Positions 2,930 to 12,756 of a DNA stretch of 64,000 nt are shown piece by piece. Position 1 is the stretch's first letter. Each line of letters opens with the position of its first letter. This DNA comes from an uncultured Paracoccus sp. (lineage in GTDB: Bacteria; Pseudomonadota; Alphaproteobacteria; Rhodobacterales; Rhodobacteraceae), in the NCBI GenBank assembly GCA_934533075.1, contig CAKTBJ010000001.1, positions 124,001 to 188,000 of the forward strand, in the 5' to 3' direction. The position numbers and the translations under genes are program-made. The notes under the pieces are model-generated. The model did not search any database, was not told where the DNA came from, and worked only from the letters and a program-made list of their open reading frames with translations.

Positions 2930-4231
2930 CTAGGCCTCGTGCCGGTTGCGCCTCAGCTCCAGCGCCATGTGCAGCCGCGCGCCCAGGTCCAGGAACGGGC
3001 GCGGCGGCACCCGCGGCGGCTGGCCCAGCGACAGCATGTCGCCGATCAGGGGATTGTCCTCGCCCAGCGCCATCTCGGCGGCCAGCATGCCGCCGATGGT
3101 GGCGCGGGTGATGCCGATGCCGTTCTGGCAGGCGGCGGTCCAGACGCGCGGCCCGACCGGGCCGAAGGCCGGGCTGCCGTCGCGCGACAGGCACATGTAG
3201 CCGGCCCAGCTATGCGCGATGGGCACCCCGGCCAGCGCGGGAAAACGCTGGTCGAACAGGCGCTGATGGTCGGCGCGGATATGGGCGCGGCGGGCGGCGG
3301 ACTGGCGCAGCGAGGGGCAGAAGCGCGCACTTTGCCGGATCAGGATGCGGCGGTCGTTGGTGTAGCGCATGGTGATCCCGGCCAGCGCATGCGCCGGGAT
3401 CACGCCCCAGGGCGCCACGCCGCCCAGCGCCGCATGCTCGGCCTCGGTAAGGCGGCGGGTCAGGCTGGCATGGGTGACGATGCTGAGCAGTCGCCCGCGC
3501 CAGAAGCCGAATTGCGGCACCAGGCCGTTGACGCCCAGGATCGCCTTGTCGGCGCGGATGCGGCCCGCCGGCGTCTCGACCACCACCGGGCCGGAGAAAT
3601 CGGCGCGCAGGACCGGGCTGTTCTCGAACAGCGTCACGTTCGCCGGCAGGCTGTCGCCGAGGCCACGGGTCAGCGCCGCCGGGTTCAGCAGCACCGTGCC
3701 GCGCGTGTAAAGCGCCGCGTGAAAATGCCCCGTCCCGAGCCGGGCGCGCAACTCGTCGGCGTCCAGCCATTCGTAATCCTCGCCCAGCCGGTCCAGGGCG
3801 GCGGCATGGGCATCCAGCATCTCGGCCTTGCCGCGCGGGGTCACGGCGGCGTGGAATTTTCCCACCTCGCTCCAGTCGCAGCCGATGCGGTGGCGCTGGA
3901 CCAACCCGCGCAGCGCGGCGATGGCGGCACGCGACAGCCGCCCCCATGCCGCGTCATGCGGGGTTCCGAGGTGATGCAGGTCGATGGCGAAGCCGGAATT
4001 GCGGCCCGAGGCGCCGGCGGCCAGGTCCTGCGCATCGACCAGCGCGATCGCGGCCTCGGGGCGCAGCTCGGCCAGCCGGCGGGCGGCGGCGAGGCCGGCA
4101 TAGCCGGCCCCGATCACCACGACATCCGCCCGCAGATCGCCCTTCAGCGCCGGGCGGGGTGCGCGTGGCGGCAGGCCGTCCAGCCAGCCGTTGCCGGCAT
4201 CGTCCTGCGGAAGCCGGCGAATGCGAATCAT
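2930..4231 (-). CDS. FAD-dependent oxidoreductase (DadA/PuuB-like)
   Basis: A 433-residue flavoprotein of the D-amino-acid/glycine oxidase superfamily, likely oxidising an amine or amino acid. The N-terminal dinucleotide motif VVVIGAGYAGLAAARRL lies near residues 35-52, followed by VDAQDLAAGASGRNSGF, the loop typical of gamma-glutamylputrescine oxidoreductases. The C-terminal part (WAGYMCLSRDGSPAFG, NGIGITRATIGG) fits the substrate and FAD domain. The frame is open far upstream, but the ATG at 4231 is right because it places the FAD motif close to the N-terminus. It diverges from the Tat-exported amine oxidase across a shared 201-bp control region. The exact substrate cannot be read from sequence. 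Confidence 0.85.
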   Translation of the reverse strand: MIRIRRLPQDDAGNGWLDGLPPRAPRPALKGDLRADVVVIGAGYAGLAAARRLAELRPEAAIALVDAQDLAAGASGRNSGFAIDLHHLGTPHDAAWGRLSRAAIAALRGLVQRHRIGCDWSEVGKFHAAVTPRGKAEMLDAHAAALDRLGEDYEWLDADELRARLGTGHFHAALYTRGTVLLNPAALTRGLGDSLPANVTLFENSPVLRADFSGPVVVETPAGRIRADKAILGVNGLVPQFGFWRGRLLSIVTHASLTRRLTEAEHAALGGVAPWGVIPAHALAGITMRYTNDRRILIRQSARFCPSLRQSAARRAHIRADHQRLFDQRFPALAGVPIAHSWAGYMCLSRDGSPAFGPVGPRVWTAACQNGIGITRATIGGMLAAEMALGEDNPLIGDMLSLGQPPRVPPRPFLDLGARLHMALELRRNRHEA

Positions 4232-4432
4232 CGGTCTGCCCCTCTTATCCCTTTGCAAAGGCTTGGCGATTGCGCGCATGGGCAGGTTCGGGCCGGCTGC
4301 CACGGATGCGTGACGAATACCATTGGACCTCTTGTCGCAGTTGTGTTGATCTGGACCCCGGCGCCATTGCGGCGCGCCGCCGCCCGCCCCTCCTCGCGGC
4401 CGGCGGCTTCCGAAACAGATTGGAGAAACAGC

Positions 4433-6028
4433 ATGGGCAACGCAACGGGCATGTCGCGGCGCGACTTGCTGACCCTTGTGGGTTACGCAGCCGGTGCCTC
4501 GGCGATGTATGGCGCGATGGTCAGGATGGGCCATGCCGGCACGTCGAACTATGACGGACCGCTGAAGCTGGAGGGCGATCCGAAAGGCACCTCGGTCCTG
4601 ATCCTCGGCGCCGGGCTGGCGGGGCTGACGGCCGCCTACGAGCTGGGCCGGGCCGGCTACAAGGTGCAGATCCTCGAATACCGCGAGCGGCCCGGCGGGC
4701 GCTGCTGGACGCTGCATGCCGGCGAGACCTATACCGAGCTGGGCGGCTTCACCCAGACCGTCGATTTCGCCGAAGGCAACTACCTGAACGGCGGGCCGTG
4801 GCGGGTGCCGGCGGATCACCACGCGGTGCTGGACTATTGCAAGCGTTTCGGCGTCAGGCTGGAAGCCTTCGTGCAGCGCAACTTCTATGCCTATCTGCAC
4901 AATTCGCAGGCGCTGGACGGCAAGCCGCAGCGTTACCGCGAGGTGGCGGCCGATTTCCGCGGCCAGATCGTGGAGCTGCTGGCCAAGGCGGTCGATCAGG
5001 GCAAGCTGGACGAGGCCGTCACCGATGCCGACGGCGCGGCGCTGGTCGAGGCGCTGAAATCCTACGGCATGCTGAACGACGATCTGGAATATGTCTCCGG
5101 CCCGCATACCTCGGCCTTCCGGGGCTGGAAGAAGCCGCCGGGCGGCGGCGCCGATCCCTGGCCGGAACCGTCCGAGATCATCACCCTGAAGGATCTGGTC
5201 GAGGGCCGGCTGTGGGAATTCCTGCTGGACGGCGACCATATCGACTATCAGCCGTCGATCTTCCAGCCCGTCGGCGGCATGGAGGAGATCGCCCGAGGCT
5301 TCGACCGCGCCATCAAGGCGGAGGTGGGCGAGATCGTCACCTACAACGCCAAGGTCATCCGCATCGAGGGCAGCGACGACGGCGTGTCCGCGACCTGGGT
5401 GCCCGCGGATGGCGAGGGCGAGGAAACCACCGTCACGGCGGATTACTGCATCTGCACCATCCCCTTCTCGATCCTCGGCCAGATCGAGAACAACTTCTCG
5501 ACCGCGATGCAGACCGCCATCGACGGCGTGTATTACGAGGCGTCGATCAAGGTCGGGCTGGAGTTCAAGCGCCGCTTCTGGGAGCAGGACGAGCATATCT
5601 TCGGTGGCATCAGCTATACCGACCTGCCGATCTCGCTGATCTCCTATCCGTCGAACGACTACTTCAGCGACGGGCCGGGCGTGCTGCTGGGCTGCTATTC
5701 CTGGGGGGCGGCGGCCTACAACTTCACCGCCATCCCGCCGGAGGAGCGGATCGAGAAGGCCCTCGAATACGGTTCGCAGATTCACCCGCAATATCGCGAG
5801 GAGTTCAAGGCCGGCGCCTCGGTCGCCTGGCATCGGGTGCCCTGGGTGCTGGGCTGCTATGGCGAATGGCGCGACAAGGAGGGCGATTACGCCGCCGCCG
5901 CCGCGATGGACCAGCGCACGCTGTTGGCGGGGGAACACATGTCCGAACTGCCGGCCTGGCAGGAGGGCGCGGTGCTGTCGGCGCTGGATGCGGTCAAGCG
6001 GCTGCATGCCCATGTCACCCAAGGGTAA
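4433..6028 (+). CDS. Tat-exported flavin monoamine oxidase family protein
   Basis: A 531-residue flavin amine oxidase. The N-terminus has a twin-arginine signal (SRRDLLTLVGYAAGAS, residues 8-23), so the folded flavoprotein should be exported to the periplasm. The FAD motif LILGAGLAGLTAAYELG starts near residue 55, and ERPGGRCWT follows, as in L-amino-acid and monoamine oxidases. The ATG at 4433 is preceded by GGAGAAACAGC and gives the signal peptide directly. A cytochrome c gene starts 13 bp downstream and an exported RidA homologue follows, suggesting that electrons go to cytochrome c rather than to O2, as in the nicotine oxidoreductase NicA2 of Pseudomonas putida. The substrate is unknown. 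Confidence 0.88.
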   Translation: MGNATGMSRRDLLTLVGYAAGASAMYGAMVRMGHAGTSNYDGPLKLEGDPKGTSVLILGAGLAGLTAAYELGRAGYKVQILEYRERPGGRCWTLHAGETYTELGGFTQTVDFAEGNYLNGGPWRVPADHHAVLDYCKRFGVRLEAFVQRNFYAYLHNSQALDGKPQRYREVAADFRGQIVELLAKAVDQGKLDEAVTDADGAALVEALKSYGMLNDDLEYVSGPHTSAFRGWKKPPGGGADPWPEPSEIITLKDLVEGRLWEFLLDGDHIDYQPSIFQPVGGMEEIARGFDRAIKAEVGEIVTYNAKVIRIEGSDDGVSATWVPADGEGEETTVTADYCICTIPFSILGQIENNFSTAMQTAIDGVYYEASIKVGLEFKRRFWEQDEHIFGGISYTDLPISLISYPSNDYFSDGPGVLLGCYSWGAAAYNFTAIPPEERIEKALEYGSQIHPQYREEFKAGASVAWHRVPWVLGCYGEWRDKEGDYAAAAAMDQRTLLAGEHMSELPAWQEGAVLSALDAVKRLHAHVTQG

Positions 6029-6041
6029 GGAGGGAAAAGCC

Positions 6042-6431
6042 ATGCTGAACGCTGTCAAATGGGCGGCCGTGGCCGCCATCGCCGCTACCCCCGCCCTGGC
6101 GCAGGATTTCGTCACCACCGGCGACTGGAGCGCCCCCTTCCCCCAGCAGGGCGGCAAGGCGGTTTATGACGCCGTTTGCGCCGGCTGCCACATGCCCGAG
6201 GGCGAGGGTGCCATCGGTGCCGGCACCTATCCGGCGCTGGCCGGAAACGAGATGCTGGAGGGGCCGGACTATCCGATCTTCATGGTGCTGCACGGCCAGC
6301 GCGCCATGCCGGCCATCGGCTGGATGCTGGACGACCAGCAGGTCGCCGATGTGGTGAACTATATCCGCCACGAACTGGGCAACGCCTTCGAGGGCGAGAC
6401 CACCGCCGCGGACGTGGCCGACGCGCGCTGA
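6042..6431 (+). CDS. Periplasmic c-type cytochrome
   Basis: A 129-residue class I cytochrome c. Residues 1-20 form a Sec signal ending in PALAQ. The single haem-binding motif CAGCH is at residues 46-50, and AMPAIGWM supplies the probable Met axial ligand before the C-terminal helix DQQVADVVNYIRH. A strong GGAGG ribosome site precedes the ATG at 6042. It follows the amine oxidase gene by 13 bp and precedes the ridA-like gene, so it is the obvious electron acceptor for that flavoenzyme. That role is inferred from operon order. Confidence 0.93.
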   Translation: MLNAVKWAAVAAIAATPALAQDFVTTGDWSAPFPQQGGKAVYDAVCAGCHMPEGEGAIGAGTYPALAGNEMLEGPDYPIFMVLHGQRAMPAIGWMLDDQQVADVVNYIRHELGNAFEGETTAADVADAR

Positions 6432-6447
6432 CCGGCGCGCCCCGCGC

Positions 6448-6473
6448 GGGCGGCGGGGATGTCCCTGCCGCCC
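6448..6473 (+). other. Hairpin between cytochrome c and ridA-like genes
   Basis: An 11-bp stem with one G-U pair (6448-6458 with 6463-6473) closes an ATGT loop. No T-run follows, so it is more likely an mRNA-stabilising or attenuating hairpin than a terminator. Confidence 0.55.
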
Positions 6474-6501
6474 GCCCCATTCAGAAGGAAAGGACAGAAG
6501 G

Positions 6502-6984
6502 ATGCTCAGAACCCTTGCGATCGCGGGCGCGATGCTGCTGCCCCTTGCCGCGCAGGCGCAGGACGTGGTGCGCCACAAGATCCCGGATTCCGATTTCCCG
6601 ATCCTGCAGGCCGTCGAGGTGCCGCCCGGCAAGACGCTGGTCTATCTCTCCGGCACGGTGCCGGGGATCGCGGATGCCGCGGCCGATCCCGATACGCCGG
6701 CGGCCTGGGGCGACATGCAGACCCAGACCGTCAGCGTGCTGAACGCCATCGACGCCCAGCTGCGCGGGATGGGGCTGGGCATGGGCGATGTGATCAAGAT
6801 GCAGGTGTTCCTGGTGGCGCCGGAGGACGGGCCGGTCGATTTCGCCGGCTTCATGGCCGGTTACTCGCAGTTCTTCGGCACCGAGGCGCAGCCGAACCTG
6901 CCGGTGCGCTCGGCGATGGTGGTGGATGCGCTGGTGCATCCGCGATGGCTGGTCGAGATCGAGGTGACGGCGGTGCGCCCCTAG
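6502..6984 (+). CDS. Exported RidA/YjgF-family protein
   Basis: RidA proteins hydrolyse reactive enamine and imine intermediates released by amine-oxidising or PLP enzymes. This 160-residue copy has a clear signal peptide (MLRTLAIAGAMLLPLAAQAQ), unlike the usual cytosolic family members of about 130 residues. The conserved Arg that binds the carboxylate is present in LPVRSAM (Arg136), and the C-terminal VEIEVTAV strand is intact. AAGGAAAGGACAGAAGG provides the ribosome site. As third gene after a Tat-exported amine oxidase and a cytochrome c, it is well placed to hydrolyse the periplasmic imine product. That function is inference. Confidence 0.85.
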   Translation: MLRTLAIAGAMLLPLAAQAQDVVRHKIPDSDFPILQAVEVPPGKTLVYLSGTVPGIADAAADPDTPAAWGDMQTQTVSVLNAIDAQLRGMGLGMGDVIKMQVFLVAPEDGPVDFAGFMAGYSQFFGTEAQPNLPVRSAMVVDALVHPRWLVEIEVTAVRP

Positions 6985-7098
6985 GCAGGGCTGCCCCCGC
7001 CGCACCCGCATGCCCTTGCGTCACTTGCCCGTGCCGGGCGCAACCGGCGCGGCAGCGGCGGCGTTGAGGCACAGGTTCCGTTCAAGGGAGGACATGCC

Positions 7099-7389
7099 AT
7101 GACCCCGATCCCCACCCTGCCGCTTGCGGTGCTGGCCGTCTCGCTTCTGGCCGCCTGCGCCACCCAGATTCCGGCCGGGCAGACACCCGGCACCTGCCGC
7201 GCCGGCGATGCCGAGAAGCTGGTGGGCCAGGTCAATCCCTCCGAGGAAGCCATCCTGGCCCTGACCGGCGCCAGCACCCTGCGCCAGTTGGGTCCCGACC
7301 AGCCGATGACGATGGATTACCGTTTCGACCGCGTGACGGTCATCAGGGACCCCGTTACCGGCCGCGTGCTGCGTGCCACCTGTGGTTGA
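7099..7389 (+). CDS. I78-family peptidase inhibitor lipoprotein
   Basis: A small (96-residue) lipoprotein with signal and lipobox (VSLLAAC, Cys17 or so). The remainder matches the I78 (Aspergillus elastase inhibitor-like) family: a Cys near the mature start, KLVGQ, then RQLGPDQPMTMDYRFDRV, and a closing Cys-Gly. The two Cys probably form a disulfide in the periplasm. Role: protection against serine peptidases. It starts 114 bp after the RidA gene with its own AGGGAGG ribosome site, and may or may not belong to that unit. Confidence 0.85.
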   Translation: MTPIPTLPLAVLAVSLLAACATQIPAGQTPGTCRAGDAEKLVGQVNPSEEAILALTGASTLRQLGPDQPMTMDYRFDRVTVIRDPVTGRVLRATCG

Positions 7390-7416
7390 ATGTCCGCCTC
7401 GCCGCATCTGCGTGGC

Positions 7417-7441
7417 GAATATATCATAATGTGAATATATC
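7417..7441. promoter_or_regulatory. Direct repeat GAATATATC upstream of nsrR
   Basis: Two identical 9-mers (7417-7425 and 7433-7441) lie 16 bp apart in a short AT-rich patch. A related ATATATC recurs at 7993-7999, after the regulator gene. The position fits an operator or AT-rich promoter element; no protein is assigned. Confidence 0.4.
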
Positions 7442-7463
7442 GGCTTGTGCCCTGCGGATGCAG

Positions 7464-7477
7464 ACCCTAGCTAGGGT
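7464..7477. promoter_or_regulatory. 14-bp perfect palindrome upstream of nsrR
   Basis: ACCCTAGCTAGGGT is a perfect palindrome 46 bp before the regulator ATG. It contains CTAG, which is rare in such genomes. Rrf2 proteins bind palindromes as dimers and often autoregulate, so this is the best operator candidate. Just downstream, TTTGTGGTT is repeated at 7486-7494 and 7501-7509. Confidence 0.5.
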
Positions 7478-7523
7478 TCCGCTGGTTTGTGGTTCCTGGT
7501 TTTGTGGTTTCGGGCGGTTTGCC

Positions 7524-7955
7524 ATGCAGTTGACGGGTTTTGCTGACTTTGGTGTTCGGGCGCTGATGCGATTGGCCGCGTCGCCCGGCACGGTCCTCAC
7601 TGCGGCCGAAATCGCCGACGAGTTCGGCATATCGCGCAATCACCTGGCGAAAAGCATGGCGGTGCTGGCGCGGGCCGGCTTTATCACCAGCCGCCGCGGG
7701 GGCGGCGGCGCCATGCTGGCACGCCCCGCGGACCAGATCCGGCTGGGCGACGTGGTGTCGGCGCTGTCGGCGAACGTGCCGATGGCCGATTGCTTTCGCC
7801 CGGATGGCGGCACCTGCATGCTGTCCGGCCATTGCGGGCTGCAAGTCCGCCTCGTCAAGGCGCGGGTCGCCTTCATCGCCTCGCTGAACGAATCCACCCT
7901 CGCGGACATCGCCATAGGCCCGATCCAGGCCAAGCACGGCCGACACAACGTCTGA
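7524..7955 (+). CDS. nsrR: Rrf2-family regulator, NsrR-like
   Basis: A 143-residue Rrf2-type transcription factor. The opening MQLTGFADFGVRALMRLA and the recognition helix ISRNHLAKSMAVLARAGF resemble NsrR, the nitric-oxide sensor with an Fe-S cluster. Three Cys (90, 98, 104; pattern C-x7-C-x5-C) are spaced for cluster binding. The frame is open for 46 codons upstream, but MQLT is the conserved family start. Rrf2 relatives such as IscR or RirA are alternatives; the SRNH helix argues for NsrR. No denitrification gene is nearby, so its targets would lie elsewhere apart from likely autoregulation. Confidence 0.8.
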   Translation: MQLTGFADFGVRALMRLAASPGTVLTAAEIADEFGISRNHLAKSMAVLARAGFITSRRGGGGAMLARPADQIRLGDVVSALSANVPMADCFRPDGGTCMLSGHCGLQVRLVKARVAFIASLNESTLADIAIGPIQAKHGRHNV

Positions 7956-8148: not shown

Positions 8149-9234
8149 ATGACAGACTCCAATCAATCCTGGGTGCAAGGCCGCAAGGTGATCGTGACCG
8201 GCGGCGTCGGCTCGGTCGGGCGCGAGCTGGTGCTGAAGCTGATCCGGCAGAAGGCCGGCGTGATCCGGGTGATCGACAACAACGAGAGCGCGCTGTTCGA
8301 CATGGAGACCGAGCTGCACGGCACGCCCGGCCTCGAATTCTTCCATTGCGACATCACCGACGAGCGCGAGATGCGCCGCACCTTCTCGAACATGGACCTC
8401 TGCCTGCATTGCGCGGCGCTGAAGCATGTCCCAAGCTGCGAGCGCAGCCCGTTCTCGGCCGTCAACGTCAATATCGAGGGCAGCGAGGTCGTCGGCCGCG
8501 TGGCGATGGAGGCCGGGCTGGAAAAGCTGATCTTCACCTCCTCGGACAAGGCGGTGAACCCGACGAATGTGATGGGCACCTCCAAGCTGATGGGCGAGCG
8601 GCTGTTCACCGCGATGAACTTCATGCGCTCGAACGACACGCAGACGGTGTTCTCCTGCACCCGCTTCGGCAATGTGCTGGGGTCGCGCGGCTCGGTCGTG
8701 CCGCTGTTCGCGCGCCAGATCGCCCAGGGTGGCCCGGTGACGATCACCGACGAGCGCATGACCCGCTTCGTGATGACGATGGAGCAGGCCGCCGATCTGG
8801 TGATCGAAAGCATGCAGCTGGCCAAGGGCGGCGAGGTCTTCGTCACCAAGATGCCGGTTCTGGCGATCACCGACCTGGCCCGCGCCATGATCGACCTGCT
8901 GGCCCCCGCCTATGGCCGCGACCCCGCCGAGGTCGAACTGGCCGTGACCGGCCCCCGCCCCGGCGAAAAGCTGTGGGAGGAGCTTTCGACCGACGAGGAG
9001 GCCGGCCGCCTGCTGGAGGGCGACCGGTTCCTGGTGGTCATGCCGGCCGGCCACACCGCGCGCCAGCGCGAGATGAAATATGCCTATGACTCGCTGCCGA
9101 TGCAGCGCTCGGAAATGGTTTACCATTCGTCGCGCCAGCCGCGCATGGACCTGGCCGAGATCCGCGACATGCTGCTGATGCCGGGCGTCCTGCCCGAGGA
9201 CGCGGCCGCCGCCCTTGCGACATTGGGCGCCTGA
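8149..9234 (+). CDS. UDP-sugar 4,6-dehydratase, WbpM/CapD/FlaA1 type
   Basis: An extended short-chain dehydrogenase (361 residues) predicted to convert a UDP-HexNAc into its 4-keto-6-deoxy form for surface glycans. The NAD motif is TGGVGSVG (residues 17-24). The active-site segment SSDKAVNPTNVMGTSK (131-146) has Met142 where most SDRs have Tyr, giving the S-M-K arrangement described for WbpM. No transmembrane domain is present, so it resembles the soluble FlaA1/PseB-size proteins. It starts a rightward cluster with a SqdB homologue 32 bp downstream. The upstream 193 bp hold no gene and should contain the promoter. Confidence 0.85.
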   Translation: MTDSNQSWVQGRKVIVTGGVGSVGRELVLKLIRQKAGVIRVIDNNESALFDMETELHGTPGLEFFHCDITDEREMRRTFSNMDLCLHCAALKHVPSCERSPFSAVNVNIEGSEVVGRVAMEAGLEKLIFTSSDKAVNPTNVMGTSKLMGERLFTAMNFMRSNDTQTVFSCTRFGNVLGSRGSVVPLFARQIAQGGPVTITDERMTRFVMTMEQAADLVIESMQLAKGGEVFVTKMPVLAITDLARAMIDLLAPAYGRDPAEVELAVTGPRPGEKLWEELSTDEEAGRLLEGDRFLVVMPAGHTARQREMKYAYDSLPMQRSEMVYHSSRQPRMDLAEIRDMLLMPGVLPEDAAAALATLGA

Positions 9235-9266
9235 GCGCCCCGATAACCGACAGACGGAGATTTTTC

Positions 9267-10418
9267 ATGCGTATTCTTGTTCTTGGTGGCGACGGTTATA
9301 TCGGCTGGCCCACCGCGATGCGGCTGTCCGCGGCCGGCCACGAGGTCATGGCGGTGGACAATTACCTGCGCCGCCGCCTGATGCGGGAAATCGACTGCGA
9401 CGCGCTGTTCGAGGTGCCCAACCTGCATGAGCGCGCCCGCATCTGGCAGGAGAGTTCCGGCCACGAGGTCGCGGTCCGCATCGGCGACCTGGACGAGTGG
9501 GACTTCATCGCCTCGGTCTTTCAGGAGTTCCGCCCCGAGGCGATCATCCATTACGCCGAGCAGCCCTCGGCGCCCTATTCGATGATCGACCGCCGGGCGG
9601 CGCGGCTGACGCTGGACAACAATCTGGGCGTGACCTTCAACACCATCCACGCGATGGCGCAGTTCACCCCCGACGCGCATCTGGTCAAGCTGGGCACGAT
9701 GGGCGAATACGGCACGCCCAATATCGACATCGAGGAAGGCTGGATCGAGATCGAGCACAAGGGCCGCAAGGGCAAGTTCCTGTTCCCGCGCGCCGCCGGC
9801 TCGCTTTACCATACGACCAAGGTGCTGGATACCGATCTGCTGTGGTTCTATGTGCGGATGTGGGACCTGCGCGTGACCGACCTGATGCAGGGTCCGGTCT
9901 ATGGCCTGACCACGAACGAAAGCGGCGAGGACGACCGGCTGTATTCCTTCCTGAACTATGACGAGGTGTTCGGCACGGTGCTGAACCGCTTCATGGTGCA
10001 GGCGGTGGCCGGCTATCCGCTGACCGTCTATGGCAAGGGCGGCCAGACCCGCGGCTATCTGCATCTGAAGGACGCGCTGCAATGCGTGCAGCTGGCGGTG
10101 GAGAACCCCGCCGGTGCCGGCGAGCTGCGGGTGTTCAACCAGTTCGTGGAAACCTTCAGCGTGAACGATCTGGCCGATCACGTCCGCCGGTCCGGCGCGC
10201 GGCTGGGGCTGGATGTCGAGGTGAAAAGCCTGCCCAACCCGCGCAAGGAGGCCGAGGATCACTATTACAACCCCGTGCATACCGGGCTGCTGGAGCTGGG
10301 CCTGAAACCCAATCCGCTGACGCCGGAGGTGATGGACGACATGATGCGGCTGACGATGAAATATCGCGACCGGATCGTGAACGACCGCATCTTCCGCGGC
10401 GTGAAATGGAAGAAATGA
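9267..10418 (+). CDS. sqdB: UDP-sulfoquinovose synthase-like protein
   Basis: A 383-residue NAD-dependent SDR protein very close to plant SQD1 and bacterial SqdB, which make UDP-sulfoquinovose from UDP-glucose and sulfite. Shared hallmarks are GGDGYIGW (residues 8-14), EQPSAPYSMIDR, KLGTMGEYGTPNIDIEEG and YGKGGQTRGYL. The catalytic trio Thr144, Tyr181 and Lys185 matches SQD1 Thr145/Tyr182/Lys186 almost exactly. None of the lipid-side partners (sqdA, sqdC, sqdD) is in the window. It sits instead between a WbpM-type dehydratase and glycosyltransferases, so it may supply a sulfosugar for a surface glycan. A related UDP-sugar epimerase activity cannot be excluded. Confidence 0.82.
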   Translation: MRILVLGGDGYIGWPTAMRLSAAGHEVMAVDNYLRRRLMREIDCDALFEVPNLHERARIWQESSGHEVAVRIGDLDEWDFIASVFQEFRPEAIIHYAEQPSAPYSMIDRRAARLTLDNNLGVTFNTIHAMAQFTPDAHLVKLGTMGEYGTPNIDIEEGWIEIEHKGRKGKFLFPRAAGSLYHTTKVLDTDLLWFYVRMWDLRVTDLMQGPVYGLTTNESGEDDRLYSFLNYDEVFGTVLNRFMVQAVAGYPLTVYGKGGQTRGYLHLKDALQCVQLAVENPAGAGELRVFNQFVETFSVNDLADHVRRSGARLGLDVEVKSLPNPRKEAEDHYYNPVHTGLLELGLKPNPLTPEVMDDMMRLTMKYRDRIVNDRIFRGVKWKK

Positions 10419-10422
10419 ATGT

Positions 10423-10445
10423 CGGCGGCCCCATGCGGGCCGCCG
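10423..10445 (+). other. Hairpin after sqdB-like gene
   Basis: A perfect 9-bp GC stem (10423-10431 with 10437-10445) and 5-nt loop lie 5 bp after the sqdB stop. No T-run follows, so it is a possible attenuator or mRNA-end stabiliser before the next gene. Confidence 0.5.
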
Positions 10446-10470
10446 CTTCCCTACCGACAAGGCCCTGCCG

Positions 10471-12756
10471 ATGACACCGACCCCCAGATCCCACAGCTTC
10501 GCCGCCCATCCCGGCCGCGTCCACGAACTGCGCCTGCTGCTGCGCGCCCGCAATCCCGGCACGGCCCTGCTGCCGGTGCCGCTGAGCCTGCGCTGCCTCG
10601 ACGCGCAGGGCCGGGCGCTGGACTGGCGGCTGGAGACCGGGACGCCGGTCCTGACCCAGCCCGCGCAGGTGCCGGCGTTGCCAGAGGGGGTGACGGGCGA
10701 TGGCGCGGAAGCGGCGGCGATGGTGTCGCTGCTGGTGCTGGCCTCGCCCGACGCGGCCCGGATCGAGGTCGGCGGCTGGGGCGACGGCATCACGGCCGAG
10801 CGGATCGAGTTGCTGGAGACCGCCATCGACTGGTCGGGCCGCGAGGCCGGGCAGCTGGCCACCGCGCGCACGGCCGCCGCCGAGGCCCAGGCCGCGCTGG
10901 CCCGCCGGCACCTGCCCGATACCGATCCCGGCCTGCTGGCCGAAATGCAGGCGCTGGCCGCCGCGCAAGTGGCTGCCTTGCAAGCCTATTTTACCGCCGG
11001 CGGCGATTGGGCGCCGGTGCTGGAGGCGCTGGACAACGCCGAGGCGCGGGCCGATTATCGCCTGCGCTGCGACCGGCTGCGGGCGCAGGCCGAGGCGCCG
11101 CCGCGCCTGGGCTTCATCGGGTCCGAGCGCGGGCGCGAGCGGCTGGAGGCGCTGGCGCATGTCACCTGGCTGCGCGAGGCGGAATGGCAGGACCAGCTGC
11201 GCCACCTGGACCTCGACCTGGTCGTGATCGAGGCCACCGGCGCCTCGGGCGCGGGCGACGAGACCGCCGACTGGGCGCTGGCCTTCGCCGCGCTGGACGG
11301 GGCGCTGCCGGCGCGCGGCGCGGCGCTGATCGAGGCCGCCGGACAGGCCGGCATCCCGGTGCATCTCTGGGCGACGGGCATGCCGGACAAGGCGCCGTTC
11401 TGGCGCGAGGCCGCGGCGCGGGCCAGCCGCGTGATCGCCGAGGGCGAAGGCGACTGGTCCGCCATCGCCCCCGACCACCTGCTGCCGCGCGCGACCGAGC
11501 CGGCGGCGGTCTCGCTGGCGGCGACCGGGCCAAGGGCGCGCGACCTGATGCTGGTGCCGGCGGGATCGGACCTGTATCAATTCCCCGAAATCCGCGCCTT
11601 CGTGAATGCCTGCGGCATGTATGATTGCGTGATCGCGGAATTCACCTACAACTTCGTGACCCCCGCCCTTCAAAAGCTGATCACCAATCCGCGCGCGACG
11701 CTGGTGGGCAGCACCAACCGCGCCGCGCAGCGGCATCTGTTGCAGAATGCCGGCATCGTGCTGCTGCCGGCGCAATCGCTGCGCAGCGACGCGGAATTGC
11801 TGGCGATTGCGATGGATGCGGTGGCCAGCGGCGCGATTCCGGTGCTGATCGGCCGGCCGCGCAGCCCCGAGCCGCTGCTGAACGCGCTGGACGTGGTGCA
11901 TTCCCCGCACGACCTGATGGAGTTGCAGGCGCTCTACCGCATCACCTGGCTGCGCGAGCGGCGGGCGCGGGCGCTGATGCGGCTGGTCTTCCGCCAGCAC
12001 GGCCACAGGTCGGAGCACCGCGCGGCCCTGCTGGGGCGCGATCCGTTCGGGCCGGAACTGGACGCGCCGCGCGTGACGGGGGTTCTGGTGACGAAACGCC
12101 CGCATCTGATCCGGGCCTGCCTGGACAGCTTCCGCCGGCAAAGCTGGGACAACCGCGAGTTGATCGTCGTGTTCAATACCGGCACCCTGCCCGAGGACCT
12201 GCCGGACCTGCGCGAGAACGAGCATGTCTTTGCCCTGCCCGAGGCCGCCAATATCGGCGAATGCCTGAACATGGGCATTGCCGCCGGCACCGGGTGCTAT
12301 TGGGTCAAGCTGGACGACGACGATTATTATAGCCGGCACTACTTCGAGGAAACCGCAATCTATTATCGGTCGAGTCAGGCGGATGTGGTAGGGCGGCAGG
12401 CAGTCTATTATTACCTCTCCGGCGAAGGCGCCTACAAGTCGCGCGAGATCATCGGTGCGCGATGCTATGCGCTGCTGTCGGACGCACCCAGGCTTGCCGG
12501 CGCCACCCTGTCGGGTGATGCGAGGCGCGGCATCGTCCCCTTCTCGCAAAGGGACCGGAATTCGTGTGATACGAATTGGGTCCATAATGTCGCGTCGTCC
12601 GGTGGCCGGATATTCTCGGCGGATTGCACCGGCATGGTTGCCTATCGGGATGCCGATGACAACAAGCACACCTGGAAATTTTCCGGTATCCCGGTTTTCG
12701 TCAATTCTTTCGTGACGCGATCGCCGGATCTTTTCGACCTGATCGAGAGGGCATGA
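10471..12756 (+). CDS. Large glycosyltransferase with C-terminal GT-A domain
   Basis: A 761-residue protein. The C-terminal part (from about residue 535) is a GT2-like domain: VTGVLVTKRPHLIRACLDSFRRQ, then NIGECLNMGI and the metal-binding KLDDDDYYS near residues 613-621. The middle (about 350-500) resembles a GT-B-like or glycosyl-chain module (ATLVGSTNRAAQRHLLQNAG), and the first 340 residues are Ala-rich, helical and unassigned. It probably adds a sugar to a surface glycan. The last 150 or so codons are noticeably less GC-rich than the rest of the gene, hinting at mosaic origin. It overlaps the next gene by ATGA. Confidence 0.75.
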   Translation: MTPTPRSHSFAAHPGRVHELRLLLRARNPGTALLPVPLSLRCLDAQGRALDWRLETGTPVLTQPAQVPALPEGVTGDGAEAAAMVSLLVLASPDAARIEVGGWGDGITAERIELLETAIDWSGREAGQLATARTAAAEAQAALARRHLPDTDPGLLAEMQALAAAQVAALQAYFTAGGDWAPVLEALDNAEARADYRLRCDRLRAQAEAPPRLGFIGSERGRERLEALAHVTWLREAEWQDQLRHLDLDLVVIEATGASGAGDETADWALAFAALDGALPARGAALIEAAGQAGIPVHLWATGMPDKAPFWREAAARASRVIAEGEGDWSAIAPDHLLPRATEPAAVSLAATGPRARDLMLVPAGSDLYQFPEIRAFVNACGMYDCVIAEFTYNFVTPALQKLITNPRATLVGSTNRAAQRHLLQNAGIVLLPAQSLRSDAELLAIAMDAVASGAIPVLIGRPRSPEPLLNALDVVHSPHDLMELQALYRITWLRERRARALMRLVFRQHGHRSEHRAALLGRDPFGPELDAPRVTGVLVTKRPHLIRACLDSFRRQSWDNRELIVVFNTGTLPEDLPDLRENEHVFALPEAANIGECLNMGIAAGTGCYWVKLDDDDYYSRHYFEETAIYYRSSQADVVGRQAVYYYLSGEGAYKSREIIGARCYALLSDAPRLAGATLSGDARRGIVPFSQRDRNSCDTNWVHNVASSGGRIFSADCTGMVAYRDADDNKHTWKFSGIPVFVNSFVTRSPDLFDLIERA

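Follow-up and report, generated by a model that had tools for sequence, protein, structure and literature searches.

Where would the electrons and the imine go when a flavoenzyme carrying an export signal is encoded directly upstream of a small cytochrome c and of a Rid-family protein with a signal peptide of its own? This question is raised by a 64,000-nucleotide stretch of contig CAKTBJ010000001.1 from an uncultured Paracoccus sp., the whole of which is called the window below. Between window positions 4433 and 6984, three open reading frames, all on the + strand and separated by gaps of 13 bp and then 70 bp, encode such a set. By its sequence the triad is a lao-cccA-ridA operon, a type already described and not new, and we consider it probable that its products form a periplasmic L-amino-acid dehydrogenase that passes electrons to its own cytochrome and the imine to its own Rid.

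Three export-type proteins and a published relative

The first protein contains an Amino_oxidase domain (PF01593, E 2e-54) and a twin-arginine motif, SRRDLL, at residues 8-13. Its best match in the PDB is 2jae, the L-amino acid oxidase (LAAO) of Rhodococcus opacus (E 1.3e-86, residues 48-530), and the top 17 of the best 60 PDB rows comprise 16 proteins named L-amino acid or L-glutamate oxidase and one, 5ts5, named only "Amine oxidase". Across 53 oxidase rows aligned with 2jae, the window included, Arg124, Lys373 and Tyr422 are invariant (53/53; indices 83, 322 and 370 in 2jae), so that the two enzymes share these three residues along with overall similarity; they differ around the Arg, where GATR in 2jae is replaced by GPWR in 53/53 rows. 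We take Arg124 and Tyr422 to be the residues that bind the amino-acid carboxylate and Lys373 to be the flavin-side Lys; a literature search on residue names of the R. opacus enzyme returned nothing on the roles of these Arg, Tyr and Lys residues. Because of the LAAO-like best match and the invariant Arg and Tyr, with the roles presumed here, L-amino acids appear likelier substrates than simple amines. The twin-arginine feature recurs among the relatives: of 56 oxidase rows taken from 53 loci, 53 have an [STN]RR motif no more than 60 residues before the catalytic core, the remainder being L032 (KRQ), L043 (RRR, with no S, T or N before it) and the frame-broken L048.

The second protein matches Cytochrome_CBB3 (E 2e-13; PF13442 and PF00034), has a Sec-type signal ending ALA-Q and contains a single CXXCH motif, CAGCH, at residues 46-50. 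Cys46, Cys49, His50 and Met89 are invariant in 51/51 cytochrome rows, Met89 being the probable sixth haem ligand. At E<=1e-3 it matches 43 PDB sequences, which comprise c6, cbb3/CcoP and quinohaemoprotein-subunit cytochromes along with further small or fused ones; judged by name, none of the 43 is CycN or a mitochondrial cytochrome c.

The third protein contains a Ribonuc_L-PSP domain (PF01042, E 9e-16) behind a signal peptide ending AQA-Q. Its closest relatives among solved structures are PSPTO3006 (E 6.5e-34) and PFL1385 (E 5.3e-22), both classed as Rid3 in Table 3 of PMC5619798. The Rid3 signature retains the Arg and Glu of RidA and replaces Tyr with Ile (PMC4433059), as do PFL_1385/PSPTO_3006 (PDB 9bkc, 9bka; PMC5619798, PMC4433059) and the window protein alike. 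Among 50 aligned Rid rows, the window included, Arg136, which an initial annotation of this DNA had singled out as conserved, is indeed invariant (50/50), as is Glu152 (50/50), and Ile34 is present in 46/50 with Val in the other four; equating Ile34 with the RidA Tyr and Glu152 with the RidA Glu is our own reading. We assign the window protein to the Rid3 subfamily, with a predicted role as an imine deaminase. PFL_1385 and PSPTO_3006 decreased the semicarbazone formed from L-Leu, Gln, Phe, Met and His oxidised by snake-venom LAAO, and thus hydrolyse the imines made by that enzyme (PMC5619798). Genes for RidA, and sometimes for Rid3, cluster with flavin adenine dinucleotide (FAD) amine oxidase genes (PMC4433059). 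The words "signal" and "periplasm" are absent from the main texts of these two Rid3 papers.

Export of all three proteins is a prediction made by eye and with a hydrophobicity heuristic. For Rid, a hydrophobic segment precedes the core in 54/56 rows, the two exceptions being a protein fused to its cytochrome (locus L019) and a row that ends at the locus edge. Of 3388 Rid homologues at E<=1e-3, 118 of the best 120 (query included) have a hydrophobic exported-type N-terminus by this heuristic (12-residue mean >=1.5), which is not SignalP and was applied with no negative control. In four Rid rows (L016, L017, L018 and one of the three Rids in L026) a lipobox-like motif was seen, which suggests membrane-anchored Rid lipoproteins. 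OngD of the chitin pathway was considered as a precedent for an exported Rid and dropped: the protein has 127 aa, its role is unsettled, and OngB and OngC of the same pathway are called cytoplasmic.

No NCBIfam model scored above its cut-off for the oxidase (best 25 of 74 families), the cytochrome (5/5) or the Rid protein (3/3). A scan of positions 4200-7450 for promoters and terminators yielded no promoter and no terminator-like site, and purine-rich, ribosome-binding-like stretches are present in the triad gene region; together with the short gaps, the absence of a terminator-like site and these stretches make the arrangement compatible with one operon. The initial annotation had described three adjacent same-direction genes for a twin-arginine flavin oxidase, a single-haem cytochrome c and a Rid protein with a signal peptide, and its coordinates, gene calls and these features were all borne out.

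An operon with this composition, lao-cccA-ridA (GDI2456-GDI2454), was reported in 2016 in Gluconacetobacter diazotrophicus PAL5, where it is known for production of indole-3-acetic acid (IAA) (PMC5053998). Two Tn5 insertions in lao left no detectable IAA, lowered indolic products by ~96% and left most tryptophan unused, and transcripts of lao, cccA and ridA were all lower in the lao Tn5 mutant tested (PMC5053998). The authors suggested that the LAAO is helped by cytochrome c and RidA, and noted conservation of the operon in Caulobacter and Xanthomonas according to OperonDB (PMC5053998). The idea in the initial annotation is therefore close to an existing proposal, and its view that it is unusual for one oxidase to have an exported RidA of its own is not supported, the triad having been published and the exported-type N-terminus being so common among the listed homologues. 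The G. diazotrophicus region (L056) was located through the reverse-transcription quantitative PCR primers of PMC5053998, of which 6/6 match exactly in genome G253 and 5/6 in G221. LAAO, cytochrome c and Rid are adjacent there on one strand in the identical order, with identities to the window proteins of 48.7% (oxidase, 520 aa), 50.5% (cytochrome, 97 aa) and 51.7% (Rid, 143 aa). Like the window oxidase, the G. diazotrophicus LAAO has a Tat signal (PMC5053998), and the N-termini of its cytochrome and Rid are signal-like by eye; export of Rid is not mentioned in the accessible text of PMC5053998.

Conservation, mobility and fusion of the triad

The identities and order of these genes, their export-type signals, their conserved residues and their conservation as a unit are apparent from comparison of the sequences. 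A single genome-contig scan seeded with the window oxidase, and so biased to close relatives, gave 53 loci, with partners detected by single sequences or family-built profiles that unrelated cytochromes or Rids would escape. The full triad is present in order in 46 of these loci, a count that includes L048, L049 and L053, where the oxidase lies in two frames and was left unmended, and the fused L019; the cytochrome lies directly downstream of the oxidase in 52/53. Recurrence of the triad outside this strain, which the initial annotation had named as a check, is thus found. Since the order is kept at 46/53 loci of other genomes, the grouping is not due to chance. It is common to Rhodobacterales, Hyphomonas, Roseomonas, Solimonas, Pseudomonas, Arenimonas and some plasmids. 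In 8/8 genomes searched, nothing matches the window cytochrome better than the copy that the coordinates place next to the oxidase. Distances between the three proteins correlate (r 0.78, 0.79 and 0.64), and 0/2000 permutations reached such values (31 rows including the window, of 42 usable). At L045 the oxidase is shortened and both partners are missing. An 8-kb stretch of Solimonas marina (L026:559-8247) contains three genes for LAAO, two for cytochromes and three for Rid proteins.

Two draws of genomes carry less of this bias to close relatives. A draw of 385 genomes from the class of G001 contained 19 with an oxidase at E<=1e-60; at least 50% identical oxidases were present in seven, the central genome included, with the cytochrome adjacent in 7/7 and Rid adjacent in 4/7, and in two further genomes of those seven (L077, L079) Rid lies ~2.9 kb upstream on the same strand. 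For the class of G006, an oxidase at E<=1e-120 was found in 3/369 genomes, again counting the centre. Where Rid is not beside the oxidase it may lie elsewhere: 8/9 genomes checked have a match at E<=1e-24, that of L029 being the copy already in the locus.

The module is mobile and travels on plasmids. In a tblastn search of plasmids, 36 records matched the oxidase at E<=1e-60; they include plasmids of Paracoccus marcusii, Sulfitobacter, Mesorhizobium and Microvirga and a conjugative IncP plasmid of Ketogulonicigenium vulgare. Five oxidase-bearing plasmid regions were inspected, three with full triads and two with oxidase and cytochrome and no annotated Rid. In a Komagataeibacter xylinus region, a cytochrome and a Rid gene stand behind insertion-sequence genes with no annotated oxidase.

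A purely historical association of the three genes, with no joint function, is scarcely credible in our estimation. Loci with oxidase and cytochrome alone (6/53) and the displaced Rid genes of L077 and L079 would suit such a view, but the order persists across the lineages and plasmids listed above while the flanking genes are unconserved, and the cytochrome and Rid have in places become one protein. In L019, from an uncultured Sulfitobacter, positions 6557-7555 form one open frame, 332 codons long without the stop, whose product has one signal, at the N-terminus, and an acidic linker joining the cytochrome and Rid domains. A query with this fusion found 127 proteins; 68 of the 120 listed (P0124-P0243) are cytochrome then Rid, never reversed, in a search whose length window omits most separate cytochrome or Rid proteins. 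Two of the 68 have no haem motif, at a cut N-terminus. An internal signal-like segment is retained in some fusions (e.g. P0170) and is missing from others (e.g. P0136, P0168), and its presence in the former suggests recent fusion. Within the genus of G004 (58 genomes) five matched: two were fused (G004, G1393), two had separate genes behind an LAAO gene and one had Rid alone in the stretch examined. An LAAO gene lies directly upstream of both fusions that had upstream DNA to inspect (L019/L106, L108). None of the papers listed by a literature search was about a RidA-cytochrome fusion, judged by title or start of abstract.

A second arrangement concerns the oxidase-cytochrome pair. On plasmid pDSHI02 of Dinoroseobacter shibae (L116:1-8030), a cytochrome c oxidase gene cluster is followed, after 22 bp, by such a pair, the two genes of which overlap by 4 bp. 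Fusions and this linkage fit a working unit, are less familiar than the triad itself, and are the parts worth following.

Electron acceptor and substrate

In the mechanism that we favour, the Tat-exported flavoenzyme would convert an L-amino acid to the 2-imino acid in the periplasm, and its reduced FAD would hand over two electrons, singly, to the co-encoded small cytochrome c, which would pass them onward to a terminal cytochrome oxidase. The imino acid would be hydrolysed by Rid3, exported alongside the other two, and yield the 2-oxo acid and ammonium without first reacting with other molecules. Dependence of tryptophan use on lao, and imine hydrolysis by Rid3, are carried over from the published relatives; that cytochrome c rather than O2 is the main acceptor we infer, along with the exact substrate and any physical contact of the three proteins. 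A literature search for a flavin L-amino acid dehydrogenase with a periplasmic cytochrome returned no paper.

The closest solved relative of the flavoenzyme is itself an L-amino acid oxidase, and Lys373, presumed to lie beside the flavin, is invariant. Both facts would suit an O2-using, H2O2-making LAAO of the type of R. opacus LAAO or Chlamydomonas LAO1, for which the cytochrome would be a side acceptor or unrelated and Rid the sole functional partner. Chlamydomonas offers a working parallel: LAO1 and LAO2/RIDA are both periplasmic, so that an L-amino acid oxidase and a RidA-type partner share the compartment as they are predicted to do here, and LAO1 deaminates tryptophan and makes H2O2; it differs in being eukaryotic, in producing H2O2 and in that no cytochrome gene is named for its cluster in the accessible text (PMC10805672). 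We nevertheless judge an O2-using enzyme unlikely for the window. The cytochrome, not Rid, is the more constant partner (52/53 against 46/53 loci), its adjacent copy is the best match in 8/8 genomes, and the D. shibae pair is placed behind a cytochrome c oxidase cluster. In G. diazotrophicus, cytochrome c maturation mutants produce IAA at 5% of the wild-type level, a near-complete loss (cited in PMC5053998).

The initial annotation had called the locus a periplasmic amine-dehydrogenase module, on the model of NicA2. Of that description, the co-exported unit of oxidoreductase, cytochrome and imine hydrolase is supported by the genomic comparisons; "amine" is not, given the LAAO relatives and the invariant Arg and Tyr. 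A dehydrogenase that resembles NicA2/Pnao-CycN and acts on an amine other than an amino acid, be it a polyamine, an aromatic amine or an alkaloid, has in its favour that many relatives are annotated "flavin monoamine oxidase family protein" by pipelines and that the nicA2-cycN-pnao system follows a similar logic, with exported relatives of flavin amine oxidases and an operon-encoded cytochrome c as acceptor (PMC9396064). Pnao, and earlier NicA2 of Pseudomonas putida S16, use CycN and react poorly with O2, and CycN resembles bovine and yeast cytochrome c (PMC9396064). The parallel with the window therefore holds for an exported flavin amine oxidase relative in an operon with an exported cytochrome c, the flavoenzymes being likened by description, and fails in cytochrome class and substrates; "rid" does not occur in the accessible text of PMC9396064. 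We rejected membership of the NicA2-CycN group since the window cytochrome, by the names of its PDB matches, is of c6/CcoP-like and related types and not CycN-like, leaving a likeness of functional logic and not of sequence. The substrate evidence points the same way. Bar 5ts5, the 17 leading PDB rows among the best 60 bear the name of L-amino acid or L-glutamate oxidase, and the Arg that presumably pairs with the substrate carboxylate is invariant. The homologous operon of G. diazotrophicus, moreover, consumes L-tryptophan (PMC5053998). On these grounds, with the invariant Tyr, a general amine oxidase reading was rejected, and we regard a non-amino-acid amine as a very unlikely substrate.

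Several observations weigh against a cytochrome-linked L-amino-acid dehydrogenase with its own Rid and were set beside the evidence for it. The nearest solved relative bears the name oxidase, and literature searches gave no electron-acceptor data for the flavoenzyme clade. Rid is a less constant partner than the cytochrome (46/53 against 52/53 loci): six loci have oxidase and cytochrome with no Rid directly after (L028, L029, L036, L041, L042 and L043; in L029 a second oxidase copy does have Rid directly after), D. shibae has no annotated Rid beside its pair, and the one Rid match in genome G488 is weak (E 6.4e-8). Among 12 oxidases at 35-41% identity in the class of G001, the cytochrome was detected in 2/12 and Rid in 3/12, so the oxidase fold does not require either partner. 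A correlation of distances is what shared species history would give as well. Few genomes carry a fusion: matches to it occurred in two of 295 genomes drawn from the family of G004, fused in the centre only, and linkage to a cytochrome c oxidase cluster was found in 0 of 71 other loci compared.

A stronger form of the dehydrogenase proposal, which we put forward tentatively and rate at somewhat below an even chance, is that flavoenzyme, cytochrome and Rid constitute one physical periplasmic complex and that the exported Rid3 branch is a dedicated imine handler for cytochrome-linked amino-acid dehydrogenases. The cytochrome would take the electrons and Rid the imine, both from the same oxidase, and in some Rhodobacteraceae and other lineages the two would have become one protein, cytochrome c, linker and Rid. 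If cytochrome c is the acceptor, a set of proteins annotated "flavin monoamine oxidase" would belong to respiration, as L-amino-acid dehydrogenases yielding H2O2 in small amounts or not at all, which would bear on auxin production by plant-associated bacteria and on amino-acid turnover. The window operon joins a described family, and the diverse triads, the fusions and the D. shibae locus provide material for biochemical work.

The surroundings of the operon

The features of the region are collected in the table.

Table. Features of the lao-cccA-ridA-type locus and its surroundings in the window
Feature	Position	Strand	Remarks
Predicted Tat-exported FAD L-amino acid oxidase/dehydrogenase (LAAO type)	4433..6028	+	531 aa, Pfam PF01593 Amino_oxidase
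Twin-arginine signal region (MSRRDLLTLVGYAAGASAMYGAMVRMGHAG)	4451..4540	+	seen in translation
Predicted exported single-haem c-type cytochrome (c6/CcoP-like)	6042..6431	+	129 aa, PF13442 + PF00034
Predicted exported Rid3-type imine deaminase	6502..6984	+	160 aa, PF01042
Divergent DAO-family FAD oxidoreductase	2930-4231	-	below-cut-off similarity to aminophosphonate oxidoreductase and L-pipecolate oxidase models
Small lipoprotein-like I78 peptidase-inhibitor family protein	7099-7389	+	just after the operon
Rrf2-family regulator	7524-7955	+	three Cys in C-terminal part (CFRPDGGTCMLSGHC)
Polysaccharide-synthesis and epimerase proteins, then family 2 glycosyltransferase	8149-12756	+	

Seven neighbouring genes were compared at E<=1e-6 with 71 loci, each with at most ~5 kb of flank. 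Those for the NlpC/P60 protein, the M17 peptidase, the DAO oxidoreductase, the I78 inhibitor and the Rrf2 regulator matched 0/71 loci at this threshold, and extension of the module to its neighbours was rejected because these five nearest flanking genes do not recur. Two sugar-nucleotide genes of the window flank match one of the 71 loci. The P. marcusii plasmid, which is outside the 71 loci, does have an annotated Rrf2 regulator, next to hmpA and ~2.5 kb past the triad; the likeness, drawn from annotation, speaks against that rejection. We take the three Cys of the window Rrf2 regulator to resemble those of the iron-sulfur nitric oxide sensors of the Rrf2 family.

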